DNA of 6,194 bases from a bacterium (lineage in GTDB: Bacteria > UBP18 > UBA7526): contig JAUXAI010000063.1 in the NCBI GenBank assembly GCA_030619985.1, positions 1 to 6,194 of the forward strand. Direction: 5' to 3'. The position numbers were made by a program, and so were the translations under genes. This document shows, piece by piece, positions 3,309 through 5,937 of the stretch; position 1 is the stretch's first letter; every line of letters begins with the position of its first letter. A model generated the notes under the pieces. It ran no database searches. It was given only the letters and a program-made list of their open reading frames with translations, and was not told the origin of the DNA.

Positions 3309-3315
3309 CTTCCAA

Positions 3316-3320
3316 CTCCC
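3316..3320 (-). promoter_or_regulatory. ilvD ribosome binding site
   Basis: GGGAG lies 7 nt upstream of the ilvD ATG at 3308. It supports that start, as does the N-terminus MRSDIMKKG, which fits the family. The site falls within a very short predicted leader of about 23 nt. Confidence 0.7.
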
Positions 3321-3337
3321 AATTAGGGTAATTATTA

Positions 3338-3366
3338 AGTATATCCTATAAATTCTATCCTGTCAA
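3338..3366 (-). promoter_or_regulatory. sigma70-type promoter of ilvDB
   Basis: On the minus strand there is a perfect -35 box TTGACA (3361-3366), a spacer of exactly 17 bp (3344-3360) and a -10 box TATACT (3338-3343, five of six consensus bases). Transcription should start near 3331, leaving a leader of roughly 23 nt before the ilvD ATG. That is too short for a T-box or a leader-peptide attenuator, so any control of this promoter would have to act at initiation. AGGATA occurs twice, once just after the -35 box and once just before and into the -10 box, 14 bp apart; this could be an operator but may be chance. The promoter separates ilvDB from the tsaE-tsaB-rimI group. Confidence 0.85.
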
Positions 3367-3398
3367 ATCTTATTAAATTGATTCCTGAAAAAGGATGC

Positions 3399-3470
3399 AA
3401 ACGGATTATGACAGATGCAGACGGAAACTCCTTCGAAGGTTTATCCGTTTGAATCTGCTTAAATCTGTCT
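3399..3470. repeat. Imperfect inverted repeat around a CCTTCGAAGG palindrome
   Basis: The left arm (3399-3425) and right arm (3444-3470) are reverse complements at 19 of 27 positions. The centre holds the perfect 10 bp palindrome CCTTCGAAGG (3430-3439). As RNA it could fold into a long imperfect hairpin between rimI and the ilvD promoter. It has no clean GC stem followed directly by a U tract, so I do not call it an intrinsic terminator, although a role in ending rimI transcription or protecting its 3' end is possible. Confidence 0.7.
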
Positions 3471-3480
3471 GAATCTGTGA
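3441..3480. repeat. 10-nt degenerate tandem array, 4 units
   Basis: Four consecutive 10-nt units on the plus strand each carry an ATCTG or ATCCG core (ttatccgttt, gaatctgctt and two more). The same core reads on the other strand in about three units across 3398-3427, so the array is present in both orientations around the palindrome at 3430-3439. The right array ends 4 nt before the rimI stop codon complement at 3485. The core matches that of the array at 5301-5342. Confidence 0.8.
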
Positions 3481-3484
3481 CTTT

Positions 3485-3943
3485 TTAGAGACCTCCCAAA
3501 TTTTTATTCCACATTATTAAAGCATCCTCACCTGTATCGTTATAATATCCCTTTTGGATGCCCCCTACTTCGAAGCCGAACTTCTTATATAAATTTTGGG
3601 CTGCTAAGTTAGAAGGCCTTACTTCTAAAGTGGCCCTCTTTGCCCCTTTTGATACCGCTAATTTTAGAAGAAACCTTATGAGCCTCTCCCCAATCTTCTT
3701 TTTCCTATATTCTGGATGAACGGCAAGGTTTGTAATATGTGCCTCATCAAATATCAACCAGAATCCAGCATAGCCTACCACCCTGCCCTCACTCTTGGCA
3801 ACCAGAAAGCAAGAAGAATCCCTCTCTTTCAGTTCTGTCAAAAAGGCCTCTCCCGACCAAGGAGAAGGGAAGGAGGCCCTCTCAATCTCCAGGATCTCAT
3901 CGATATCCTCTCTCTTCATATCCTCAATAGTAATGGGAACCAA
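3485..3943 (-). CDS. rimI: Ribosomal protein S18 alanine N-acetyltransferase, GNAT family
   Basis: A GNAT-fold enzyme expected to transfer acetyl from acetyl-CoA to the N-terminal alanine of ribosomal protein S18. I choose the TTG at 3943: GGAGAAGG stands upstream with 6 nt between GGAG and TTG, the product (152 residues) is close to E. coli RimI (148), and VPITIEDMKREDIDEILEIE matches the usual N-terminus. An ATG at 3988 would add 15 residues, lacks a good ribosome site and reads through repeat-like DNA. Visible marks are: RASFPSPWS (22-30); the ITNLAVHPEYR acetyl-CoA strand (70-80); catalytic Glu107 in LEVRPSN; Tyr119 in LYKKFGF, the general acid, 12 residues on as in Salmonella Glu103/Tyr115; and YYNDTGEDALIM (133-144). 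Oddity: the RxxGxG pyrophosphate loop reads RKKKIG, with Lys83 for the first glycine. It follows tsaB after 186 bp of repeats. Some family members act on other N-termini, so S18 specificity is inferred. Confidence 0.9.
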   Translation of the reverse strand: MVPITIEDMKREDIDEILEIERASFPSPWSGEAFLTELKERDSSCFLVAKSEGRVVGYAGFWLIFDEAHITNLAVHPEYRKKKIGERLIRFLLKLAVSKGAKRATLEVRPSNLAAQNLYKKFGFEVGGIQKGYYNDTGEDALIMWNKNLGGL

Positions 3944-3945
3944 AA

Positions 3946-3953
3946 CCTTCTCC
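3946..3953 (-). promoter_or_regulatory. Ribosome binding site that sets a TTG start for rimI
   Basis: GGAGAAGG precedes TTG at 3943, with 6 nt between GGAG and the codon. The next in-frame upstream ATG (3988) has only CACCTCTTCC-type sequence before it, with no purine-rich site. This decides the start in favour of TTG. Confidence 0.65.
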
Positions 3954-3967
3954 AAAAAAAGAAACCT

Positions 3968-3981
3968 GCTACAAGCTGCAA
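3968..3981. repeat. 7-nt tandem repeat, 2 units
   Basis: Two 7-nt units, gctacaa and gctgcaa, are followed by a decayed gcccca. The repeat lies just upstream of the chosen rimI start and would be translated (GLAACSR) only if the ATG at 3988 were used. It is a small member of the short-array class filling this gap. Confidence 0.5.
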
Positions 3982-4005
3982 GCCCCATATTTAGGAAGAG
4001 GTGAA

Positions 4006-4053
4006 GCGGTGTATTTCTGTATCGGCGTATCGGTGTAACGGTGTATCGGTGTC
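4006..4053. repeat. 8-nt degenerate tandem array, 6 units
   Basis: Six consecutive octamers on the plus strand have consensus tcggtgta: two intact or single-change copies flank further variants such as acggtgta and tcggcgta, and the outer units are more decayed (tttctgta). It lies in the 186 bp gap between tsaB and rimI. No open frame of note crosses it, and no protein-binding site is recognised. Confidence 0.85.
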
Positions 4054-4061
4054 TTTCTCTT

Positions 4062-4101
4062 TTGCCCCGTTACTCCCTTACTCCCTTACCCCATCACTCC
4101 G
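4062..4101. repeat. Second 8-nt degenerate tandem array, 5 units
   Basis: Five octamers on the plus strand have consensus ttactccc: two exact adjacent copies at 4070-4085, with variants ttgccccg, ttacccca and tcactccg around them. The unit sequence is unrelated to the array that ends 9 nt to its left, but the unit length is the same. It lies 28 nt beyond the tsaB stop. Confidence 0.85.
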
Positions 4102-4129
4102 TTTCGACATTCCTGGGGCCTGTAGCCCT

Positions 4130-4807
4130 TTATCTCTCAACTGGTGCTCGAACATAGATTGGTTTTAAAGTCGAAAGTTCGCTCTTTTTCTTTCCCCTCA
4201 ATTTCCTTAATCCCAATTCAGCAATGGATGAAGCGCTCGGTAGTCTCCTCGCCTTAGGGGCAAAGACCGCTTTCTTTCCTAACTTCTTCTTAATTAAATC
4301 CCCATAGACCTCAATCCCATCCCCCAAAAAAATCGCCCTTGACCCTTGACCCTTAACCCTTAACGCTATCTTCTTTAATAACTCGTTCGGCTCACAAGCC
4401 ATATGCTTAGTAAGTCTCTTCCTATTCCTATATAAAGCACAATAGACCTCTCCCTTCCGCGCATCCAGAATGGGACAGATTAAATCCTTACAATGGAAGA
4501 GATTAAAGGCCAATCCATCCAGGGTTGGTATTCCAACAATAGGGATATTTAGTCCTTGAGCCAATCCCTTGGCAGTAGCAATCCCGATACGAAGACCAGT
4601 AAAGGAACCCGGCCCCAGAGAGACAGCGATTCCATCCAAATCTTTAAGAGTTAAGGAGGCATCCTTTAATATCCTATCTATAGCAGGCATTAATCTTGAG
4701 GTATGGGTTTCCCTTAGGTTTAGAGTATACTCTGCAATCAGTCTCTCCTCATCCATCAGAGCAACAGAGCCAGTCATGGTTGAGGTTTCAATTCCCAAAA
4801 TCCTCAT
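4130..4807 (-). CDS. tsaB: tRNA t6A37 threonylcarbamoyltransferase complex subunit TsaB
   Basis: TsaB is the non-catalytic ASKHA-fold partner of TsaD; with TsaE they transfer threonylcarbamoyl to A37 of ANN-reading tRNAs in the cytoplasm. From the ATG at 4807 the product is 225 residues (E. coli TsaB, 231). This ATG gives the typical MRILGIETST N-terminus and has AGGGA 5 nt upstream. An in-frame TTG at 4822 lies in repeat DNA and has no ribosome site. Marks (ATG numbering): MRILGIETST (1-10), VSLGPGSFTGLRIGIATAKG (62-81), PILDARKGEVY (112-122), FLGDG (160-164) and the C-terminal LKPIYVRAP (214-222). tsaD is not in the window. Oddity: residues about 149-157 (LRVKGQGSR) are encoded by a 7-nt tandem array, making a basic, glycine-containing insert between a helix (ELLKKI) and the FLGDG strand. 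The gene follows tsaE after 19 bp. Confidence 0.94.
   Translation of the reverse strand: MRILGIETSTMTGSVALMDEERLIAEYTLNLRETHTSRLMPAIDRILKDASLTLKDLDGIAVSLGPGSFTGLRIGIATAKGLAQGLNIPIVGIPTLDGLAFNLFHCKDLICPILDARKGEVYCALYRNRKRLTKHMACEPNELLKKIALRVKGQGSRAIFLGDGIEVYGDLIKKKLGKKAVFAPKARRLPSASSIAELGLRKLRGKKKSELSTLKPIYVRAPVER
4336..4363. repeat. 7-nt tandem array inside the tsaB coding region, 4 units
   Basis: Two copies of cccttga are followed directly by two of cccttaa on the plus strand, four perfect 7-nt periods in 28 bp. On the coding strand it reads in frame as LRVKGQGSR of TsaB, with no stop. Because 7 is not a multiple of 3, each copy is read in a different frame, so adding or losing a single unit would break the gene. 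Confidence 0.9.
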
Positions 4808-4814
4808 ATTTGTC

Positions 4815-4846
4815 CCTATCAACTTATCAACGTATCAACTTATCAA
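4815..4846. repeat. 8-nt tandem array across the tsaE stop and tsaB leader, 4 units
   Basis: On the coding strand, four octamers with the shared core TTGATA (TTGATAAG, TTGATACG, TTGATAAG, TTGATAGG) run through the last codons of tsaE, its TGA stop and 17 of the 19 bp gap's neighbourhood up to 7 nt before the tsaB ATG. The final unit supplies part of the AGGGA that serves as the weak tsaB ribosome site. The array therefore sets both the TsaE C-terminus and the spacing to tsaB. Confidence 0.85.
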
Positions 4847-5285
4847 TTATATCTCGGTAATGCTTTCCTTTTGGAATAAACTCTATTCTTCTTCTATTCT
4901 CGTCGATAATTTCCAGATTTATGATTAGGACTTCTTCTGGCAAGAGTCTTCTTACCTTCTTCGCCCACTCAATGATAGTCACTCCTTCTCCATAGAAGTA
5001 TTCTTCGTAGCCCAGATCATAGACCTCTTTAAGATTATCTATTCGATAAAGGTCAATGTGATAGAGGGGCATTCTTCCCTTATGCTCTTTAATCAGAGTG
5101 AAGGAAGGACTGGTTACATAATTTTTCTTCTTCACTCCCAAGCCTTTTGCCAAACCCTGGGTCAGAGTGGTCTTCCCACTCCCCAACTTCCCAATTAGAG
5201 CAACAACATCTCCCGGTCGAAGTAATTTACCTATCTTCTTTCCCAGTCTTATTGTCTCTTTTGCGCTCTTCGTCTCTACAATCAT
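4827..5285 (-). CDS. tsaE: tRNA t6A37 biosynthesis ATPase TsaE
   Basis: A P-loop ATPase that supports the TsaB-TsaD complex during synthesis of t6A37. The 152-residue length is normal. Visible marks are: an N-terminal SAKETIRLGKKIGKLLRPGDVVALIG that fits the family; a Walker A loop GKLGSGKTT (32-40) with Lys38; the conserved TSPSFTL (58-64); HIDLYR (76-81) with Asp78, the metal-binding acidic position; and IIEWA (104-108). Start: ATG at 5285, only AGAAG and a weak GGGA upstream, but the N-terminus agrees with the family. The C-terminus (IIDKLIR) is encoded by the 8-nt array at 4815-4846, so the last residues are probably not ancestral. It lies 55 bp after the CBS gene and 19 bp before tsaB, consistent with one transcript. 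Confidence 0.95.
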   Translation of the reverse strand: MIVETKSAKETIRLGKKIGKLLRPGDVVALIGKLGSGKTTLTQGLAKGLGVKKKNYVTSPSFTLIKEHKGRMPLYHIDLYRIDNLKEVYDLGYEEYFYGEGVTIIEWAKKVRRLLPEEVLIINLEIIDENRRRIEFIPKGKHYRDIIDKLIR

Positions 5286-5300
5286 CTTCTGTATCCCGCT

Positions 5301-5342
5301 ATCTGCGGTAATCTGCGTTTTGATCTGCGGTCATCTGCGTTT
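5301..5342. repeat. 10-12-nt tandem array, 4 units
   Basis: Four units on the plus strand begin ATCTGCG, with lengths 10, 12, 10 and 10 nt, alternating between ggta/ggtc and gttt tails. A possible decayed fifth unit (gtatcccgct) sits at 5291-5300. The array fills nearly all of the 55 bp gap between the CBS gene and tsaE and touches the CBS stop codon (5341-5343). The ATCTG core is shared with the array at 3441-3480. Confidence 0.85.
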
Positions 5343-5802
5343 AGGCTTCTCCCTTAGCAATGGCCCTGACTACATCCGCCTTCCCTACAATGCCCACGAT
5401 CTTGTCCTTCTCCATAACAGGTAGAAGATACTTTCTCTCCGTGGACATTAAAGTTGCAATATCCTCGATATAGGTATCTGGTTTTATGGTGATTACCTCT
5501 TTGGTCATTACTTCGGAGACCTTTTGGCCTAAGACTTTACCCATTTCCTCTTCAAATCTCTTGGGGCTTTCTAAATAGATTACTCCTTCCAAAAGCTGGA
5601 CTACGGTAGGAATATGAACCTTCTTATCTCTAATGATTAAGTCTGCCTCAGTCACAATTCCTTTTAATTTATTGCTCTCATCCACCACTGGTGCTCCGCT
5701 TATCCTATGCTCTACGAGAAACTTTGCCACCTCCTTTACCGTCATATCCTCTTTTACTGTCAATACCTCTTTTGTCATAATGTCCTTCGCCTGCACAACC
5801 AT
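5341..5802 (-). CDS. Two-CBS-domain protein, function unknown
   Basis: A stand-alone soluble protein of 153 residues made of a Bateman pair. CBS1 spans about 1-60 (AKDIMTKEVLTVKEDMTVKEVAKFL, then ISGAPVVDESNKLKGIVTEADL). A linker with ESPKRFEEEMGKVLGQ covers about 78-93. CBS2 spans about 94-150 (VSEVMTKEVITIKPDTYIEDIATLM, then LLPVMEKDKIVGIVGKADVVRAI). Such pairs usually bind adenosine nucleotides (AMP, ADP, ATP, SAM) and sense energy state; which ligand and which partner cannot be read here. It has no signal peptide, membrane segment or attached catalytic domain. ATG at 5802 has an excellent GAGGAGGTGA site upstream. It stands between nnrD and tsaE, which suggests a housekeeping regulatory role, but no direct link to t6A or NADHX repair is shown. 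Confidence 0.92.
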   Translation of the reverse strand: MVVQAKDIMTKEVLTVKEDMTVKEVAKFLVEHRISGAPVVDESNKLKGIVTEADLIIRDKKVHIPTVVQLLEGVIYLESPKRFEEEMGKVLGQKVSEVMTKEVITIKPDTYIEDIATLMSTERKYLLPVMEKDKIVGIVGKADVVRAIAKGEA

Positions 5803-5809
5803 TATTTCA

Positions 5810-5816
5810 CCTCCTC
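5810..5816 (-). promoter_or_regulatory. Strong ribosome binding site of the CBS gene
   Basis: GAGGAGG stands 7 nt before the ATG at 5802 and continues into GTGA, a near-full match to the anti-Shine-Dalgarno sequence. It is much stronger than the sites of tsaE and tsaB downstream, so the CBS protein may be made in excess of them from a shared transcript. Confidence 0.75.
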
Positions 5817-5818
5817 TT

Positions 5819-5894
5819 CAATGCAAATTGCCTGCCTGTCGGCAGACAGGTAAAATTAGCAATTAGCAATGAAAAATTAAAAAAATTTGCATTG
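5819..5894. repeat. 11 bp perfect inverted repeat enclosing a 20 bp palindromic element
   Basis: caatgcaaatt at 5819-5829 is the exact reverse complement of aatttgcattg at 5884-5894. Between them, at 5831-5850, lies a CCTGCCTGTCGGCAGACAGG element whose halves CCTGTC and GACAGG pair around GGCA. An alternative pairing uses CTGCC with GGCAG. Next to it, a 7-nt periodic stretch (aattagc twice, then decayed copies) runs through about 5854-5881. The whole could fold into a cruciform or RNA hairpin just upstream of the CBS ribosome site. Confidence 0.75.
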
Positions 5895-5927
5895 CTGACT
5901 TTGCATTGATAATTTTGCATTTTACTG
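5886..5927. repeat. 14-nt tandem array, 3 units
   Basis: Three 14-nt units on the plus strand each begin tttgcatt (tails gctgac, gataat, ttactg). The first unit overlaps the right arm of the inverted repeat at 5884-5894, and the left arm at 5819-5829 is an inverted partial copy. The array lies 10 nt from the nnrD stop codon and is AT-rich. Confidence 0.8.
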
Positions 5928-5937
5928 TTCTTTCCTT

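Follow-up and report, generated by a model that had tools for sequence, protein, structure and literature searches.

The window analysed here, 6,194 nt in length, corresponds to contig C2 in the draft genome G000 (1.25 Mb; 84% complete), which comes from a bacterium whose family membership points to the candidate phylum UBP18. Its genes all lie on the minus strand, running from the end of nnrD (Carb_kinase) through a CBS-domain protein gene, tsaE, tsaB and a rimI-like acetyltransferase gene to ilvD and ilvB; tsaB is named from its gene context, with the protein matching the TsaD-family model, and ilvB from its own sequence and the naming in an earlier note on this DNA. That note had described a short tandem array in each of the five successive gaps from nnrD to ilvD, and Tandem Repeats Finder (TRF), used for array detection in the window, finds arrays in all five. 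The earlier note did not recognize that most such arrays are pieces of dispersed elements, either arms or fragments, and that these elements are often inverted repeats. We argue below that these are probably, for the most part, small non-autonomous elements akin to repetitive extragenic palindromic doublets forming hairpins (REPINs) and miniature inverted-repeat transposable elements (MITEs), with arms made of tandem arrays. The UBP18 genomes compared are all draft metagenome-assembled genomes (MAGs): G001 and G002 belong to the same genus as G000, and G003 (genus UBA7526), G004 and G005 to the same family, the G000–G003 drafts being 75–93% complete.

The features of the five gaps lie, like the genes, on the minus strand. 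The element in the nnrD–CBS gap (5829–5921) comprises arrays at 5886–5921 (14 nt; AATGCAA units) and 5854–5870 (7 nt; ATTGCTA), and it also includes a small hairpin, CCTGCCTGTCGGCAGACAGG, at approximately 5833–5852. The CBS–tsaE gap holds a 10/12-nt array (CGCAGATGAC / CGCAGATCAAAA; 5301–5342; TRF periods of 10 and 22 nt) that starts at the stop codon of the CBS gene and belongs to the highly repeated CGCAGAT family, which has 29 pattern matches in G000. The 8-nt array of the AAGTTGAT family between tsaE and tsaB (4817–4850) is not purely intergenic, since it starts inside the last codons of tsaE, spans the end of the gene and carries its stop codon, and a 7-nt array (4336–4364) lies inside the tsaB reading frame, where it encodes approximately ALRVKGQGS and is absent or different in G001, G002 and G004. 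The TsaB segment following LLKK (window 4325–4372; TsaB of L039–L042) is a recurrent in-frame insertion site: G000 and G003 have a KGQG stretch derived from an array, G002 has no insert, and G001 has another, longer one.

In the tsaB–rimI gap, TRF identifies 8-nt arrays that form the 5′ arm (GGAGTAAG; 4070–4100) and the 3′ arm (ACACCGAT; 4007–4052) of an inner hairpin, which as a whole (approximately 3998–4111) recurs as an 81% copy in G002, at the unrelated locus L095:6406-6511. Sequence comparison delimits around it the 5′ arm (AGGGCTACAGGCCCCAGG; 4112–4129) and the 3′ arm (GGGGCTTGCAGCTTGTAGCAGG; 3965–3986) of what appears to be an older 7-mer hairpin. In G001 this position is taken by a simple 7-mer hairpin, and G000 has those outer arms with the 8-mer hairpin between them, so that the gap looks nested in G000, the 8-mer element presumably having entered the older one. 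The 7-nt pair of the earlier note is probably CTACAAG/CTGCAAG, near 3969–3983 in the outer arm. The rimI–ilvD gap contains an imperfect hairpin (3394–3475; loop approximately ACCTTCGAAGGAG; TRF array at 3450–3478) with 10-nt units (GATKCARACR) in both arms; its family is dispersed, G000, G002 and G004 containing related copies and G001 a partial one. The 2-nt ilvD–ilvB junction (1645–1646) is empty in the window, as had been pointed out, but this is not a special property of the site, because the orthologous gap, 175 nt long in G002 and 266 nt in G001, carries arrays or hairpins in both; in G003 it measures 32 nt.

Array occupation of this kind extends across the genome. The statistics rest on genome samples in which genes were called with our own codon-based script, making gap borders approximate. 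In the main G000 sample (668 kb, including contigs picked for matching the window), 157 of 341 gaps of 40–400 bp contain arrays, against 5.4 in shuffled sequence; in a smaller sample (contigs C1–C26 minus C15, with only the first 20 kb of C6 and C8), the count is 77 of 122 gaps, compared with a mean of 3.5 (maximum 7) in dinucleotide shuffles and 5.9 in size-matched coding pieces. The earlier proposal that gaps are occupied beyond chance thus withstands the shuffled control, but its statement that every gap carries an array holds for the five window gaps and not for the genome at large, where about half of the gaps of this size do. Array gaps make up a similar share in G002 (56%), G001 (51% of 39 gaps) and G004 (70% of 23 gaps), and only 6% in G003, none of them at a score of at least 50.

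Array periods are confined to 7, 8, 9 and 10 nt and their multiples (period 7: 102 observed, 1.7 expected; period 8: 86 observed, 1.0 expected), with periods 2–6 (0–3 arrays each) and 11–13 near background. About a dozen word families can be distinguished among the arrays, with AAGTTGAT, CGCAGATGAC, GGTTTAC, ATCAGGTT, AGTTAGCC and ACAAGGGTG as examples, and these words recur: for 181 of 204 arrays another gap holds a similar one (34–48 in a unit-permuted control), 266 of the 341 gaps have a match elsewhere among the gaps of G000, and 180 share at least 60 nt with another gap, as against a single gap after shuffling. A fixed 29-mer, CGCAGATGACCGCAGATCAAAACGCAGAT, is present at many G000 loci and also in G001, G002 and G004. 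Among 235 other genomes, arrays of AAGTTNAT were not found in any and CGCAGAT arrays in five, with one to three matches each, indicating a word lexicon that is largely lineage-specific. The genomes with CGCAGAT triple arrays (G045, G092, G141, G190 and G235) are unrelated and carry one to three each. A viral origin was rejected, one CGCAGAT array pattern having no exact match in IMG/VR contigs. Within units, invariant columns show only a modest excess (4.77 versus 4.36), and a strict core-plus-spacer rule is therefore not supported.

Many gaps carry the same word forward in their 5′ part and reverse-complemented in their 3′ part, giving long imperfect hairpins. A self-complementarity score of at least 15 is reached by 37 of 146 array gaps, compared with 0.5 in shuffles and seven among chimeras in which halves from different gaps were swapped. 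Entire elements are found again, together with their loops, at unrelated loci and in other species, some in opposite orientation, and at the level of sequence these comparisons establish dispersal as hairpin units.

The elements occupy a characteristic position with respect to genes. Arrays lie close to stop codons: the first one starts a median of 9 nt after the stop, as against a median distance of 33 nt between arrays and the next start codon; 34 of 168 arrays begin before the stop codon, and an array starting within the last codons of the upstream gene often supplies a new one. Clean occupied/empty pairs likewise place the insertion close to where the upstream gene ends, ahead of the ribosome-binding site of the next. 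The comparison of the same gaps in sister genomes, which the earlier note had proposed as a check, reveals array turnover, and five-way synteny shows the same gap with different elements or none. The nnrD–CBS gap measures 135 nt in G000, 5 nt in both G001 and G002, 24 nt in G003 and 273 nt in G004, and the end of tsaE carries AAGTTGAT units in G000 and G001 and GGTTTAC-type units in G002 and G004. Among 48 orthologous gaps of G000 and G002, approximately a quarter are 80–100% identical, while the majority have less than 60% global identity; the median identity of the flanking proteins is 92.7%.

Other observations concern gap ends, gene arrangement and contig content. At the end of several gaps, a small palindrome (CTCCGAACGGAGTGAGGG or TCCGAGCGAAGCGAGGA, for example) overlaps the ribosome-binding site, as in L118:16094-16337 and its G002 orthologue; in one case it is conserved despite replacement of the upstream array. 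A separate family, CCCCGCACC, present in the same gaps as the arrays, looks like a classic MITE, with terminal inverted repeats of approximately CCCCGCACCTT...AAGGTGCGGGG (L067:9505-9586, L123:3611-3731, L054:8086-8224 and similar); it lies in ATGA/GTGA stop–start overlaps, where some 4–5 nt (RTGA) are duplicated and both stop and start codons are kept. Genes are nearly all co-oriented within G000 contigs, with one against the rest among about 390 under a pooled codon model, and in the larger G000 sample orientation switches at 12 of 596 adjacent pairs, fewer than in most other genomes sampled (counts from L043–L078 and L110–L129). Five short G000 contigs (L066, L070, L072, L076 and L078) have no genes under the G000 codon model and may represent RNA genes or contaminants.

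The interpretation we consider probable is that the arrays are mainly arms and fragments of dispersed, non-autonomous elements of the REPIN/MITE type. Elements of approximately 30–230 nt would insert between co-oriented genes, usually with one end in the last codons or stop codon of the preceding gene and the other just short of the next gene's ribosome-binding site, and could nest within one another. They may spread through a single-strand or hairpin-recognizing process acting in trans, as REPINs do by means of REP-associated tyrosine transposases (RAYTs), and would be tolerated through landing in gaps and bringing stop codons with them. Several results weigh against this interpretation. The strong-hairpin score is reached by only about a quarter of array gaps; occupied/empty pairs yield overlaps from −6 to +11 and no constant target-site duplication for the array elements; and the model requires many families to have spread in parallel, something unusual for a single mobilizer. 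Searches for mobilizing and repair enzymes, which took in the incomplete G000–G003 drafts and left out G004 and G005, gave no match to the RAYT-type Y1 transposase (PF01797), reverse transcriptase (RVT_1) or Ku, nor to DDE_Tnp_1 or Transposase_mut, other transposase families being unsearched. Moreover, copying followed by ordinary mutation does not explain the spectrum of unit-to-unit differences. In indel-free arrays, units differ by about 17% with a transition-to-transversion ratio (Ts/Tv) of 0.89, compared with 3.04 at four-fold sites at 18% divergence between G000 and G002 (p ~3e-47), and the variation between units is therefore probably not mainly the product of ordinary mutation after duplication. 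Dispersed copies at least 90% identical have a Ts/Tv of 2.9, and the variation seems to have been already present when the elements spread, old saturation within arrays being an alternative.

Three biological alternatives and one technical one compete with the dispersed-element interpretation. The arrays could have grown in place from a short word by replication slippage and then decayed, without function, through point mutation. Their head-to-tail, degenerate structure agrees with such an origin, and the over-representation of heptamers in bacteria has been ascribed in the literature to polymerase contact length (quoted in PMC4692102 and PMC4679880). A long, near-perfect AAGTTNAT array (G000:C49:26067-26157) further suggests that slippage probably adds units at some loci. 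As a main cause, however, slippage was rejected on the period distribution, limited almost entirely to 7–10 nt and multiples, and on the mutation spectrum of the units; the sharing of words and whole hairpins among unrelated loci and the wholesale replacement of gap contents, instead of gain and loss of units, also count against this option of the earlier note, and we regard it as unlikely. A similarly improbable account invokes de novo synthesis, in which an iterative or error-prone polymerase, working for instance at fold-back ends, would build hairpin arms of 7–10-nt units that may later be copied. It would accommodate the restricted unit size, the built-in unit variation with its near-random Ts/Tv, the inverted arms of the same word and the insertions without constant target duplication. 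Yet a limited, shared lexicon points to copying and not to fresh synthesis at each site, closely similar dispersed copies have an ordinary Ts/Tv, and neither Ku nor reverse transcriptase was detected in the four genomes searched. The lack of a Ku match there also leaves Ku-type end joining unsupported as a form of the repair synthesis at breaks that the earlier note suggested. Of the polymerases, which that note had proposed to look for, no Y-family member was detected in the array-rich G000 and G002 drafts, whereas the array-poor G003 has one.

Selected signals present a different kind of alternative. Intercistronic hairpins might end, stabilize or separate transcripts in a genome with almost wholly co-oriented genes, or the arrays might be bound by a nucleoid or RNA-binding protein. 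The location between stop codon and ribosome-binding site, the invariance of some unit positions across copies and the fact that many gaps fold better than shuffled sequence would fit such a role, but folding is almost as good in array-free gaps (mean z of −1.57, versus −1.86 for array gaps), and no Rfam covariance model matches in the window. Compensatory changes are almost lacking in the consensus hairpin (covariation term of 0.3, weak evidence given the few varying pairs), and mismatches on the gene strand are A–C (130) more often than G–U (76); a hairpin RNA selected on that strand was rejected for lack of covariation and of a G–U excess. Together with the near-absence of arrays in G003, these results speak against a conserved function, as does the fact that elements are lost or replaced at orthologous gaps. 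We thus give selected signals little credence, the transcript-end structures put forward earlier being a possible form of them that faces the same objections; the elements look selfish or neutral rather than required, and are apparently dispensable. An assembly or binning artefact, finally, might be suspected of a pattern described in draft MAGs, but is scarcely credible: the same pattern occurs in independent MAGs, many arrays lie inside long contigs between intact syntenic genes, and G000 and G002 agree at every position of some array gaps (e.g., 91/91 nt). The comparison of sister genomes contradicts such an artefact.

Among known systems, REPINs are the most alike in their working. Described as inverted doublets that form hairpins, non-autonomous and associated with RAYTs (Bertels and Rainey 2011, PMC3116915), they share with the dispersed elements short extragenic words in inverted pairs, dispersal in gaps and copying as a unit. 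Putative circular or extrachromosomal intermediates have been reported for REPINs. A subset of the array gaps in G000 displays such inverted-pair, dispersed hairpins. The arms differ, however, in being tandem arrays of 7–10-nt units from roughly a dozen word families, and the G000–G003 drafts have no PF01797 match that would indicate an encoded RAYT. MITEs and the enterobacterial repeat units (RU; enterobacterial repetitive intergenic consensus, or ERIC, type) are likewise small, non-autonomous and intergenic with inverted ends, some lying inside genes (PMC2229807, PMC2759123); unlike classic MITEs, the array elements lack a target duplication of constant length. Simple-sequence slippage repeats, which grow locally with mutation-like divergence between units, do not match what is seen here.

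Tandem arrays of 7-nt units in gaps are also known from the short tandemly repeated repetitive (STRR) sequences of cyanobacteria. STRR-type and TAACTGA repeats consist predominantly of one 7-nt word, head to tail, whereas G000 has many words and units of 7–10 nt. The TAACTGA repeats of the Beggiatoaceae, seen also in unrelated phyla, form sets of direct 7-mer repeats in many gaps, some over the end of the upstream gene, but with inverted pairs in 1 of 170 sets (MacGregor 2015, PMC4679880), in contrast to the hairpins and whole-element dispersal observed here. The heptamers of Xanthomonas and Nostoc also form tandem arrays in gaps, those of Xanthomonas nearer the 5′ neighbouring gene, and involve one G-rich word that related genomes for the most part retain between the same two genes (PMC4692102), where UBP18 shows several words and frequent replacement. 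These heptamers and the TAACTGA repeats both resemble single arms of the UBP18 elements. Borg tandem repeats are similarly pervasive and fast-evolving, in gaps and reading frames, but are reported to be of independent origin (PMC9879509), whereas words and hairpins are here common to several sites. A literature search restricted to an open-access set returned no description of this organism's repeats.

In this lineage, then, about half of the gaps contain short-lived repeat elements, which belong to several word families unrelated to one another and are, to our knowledge, denser and more varied than known REP/REPIN examples. A more far-reaching possibility, which we advance only tentatively and do not think likely, is that UBP18 harbours a new class of dispersed elements whose 7–10-nt arm words arise by dedicated, partly random synthesis, and that no known transposase, end-joining enzyme or reverse transcriptase takes part as these elements rewrite gaps and the ends of genes. 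The contrast between G003 and the other members of the family, without and with arrays, offers a route to the responsible gene, and the limit on unit size and the mutation spectrum provide testable constraints on the origin of 7–10-nt tandem repeats in bacteria, so far explained mainly by slippage. By supplying stop codons and in-frame inserts, the elements also reshape the ends of proteins.

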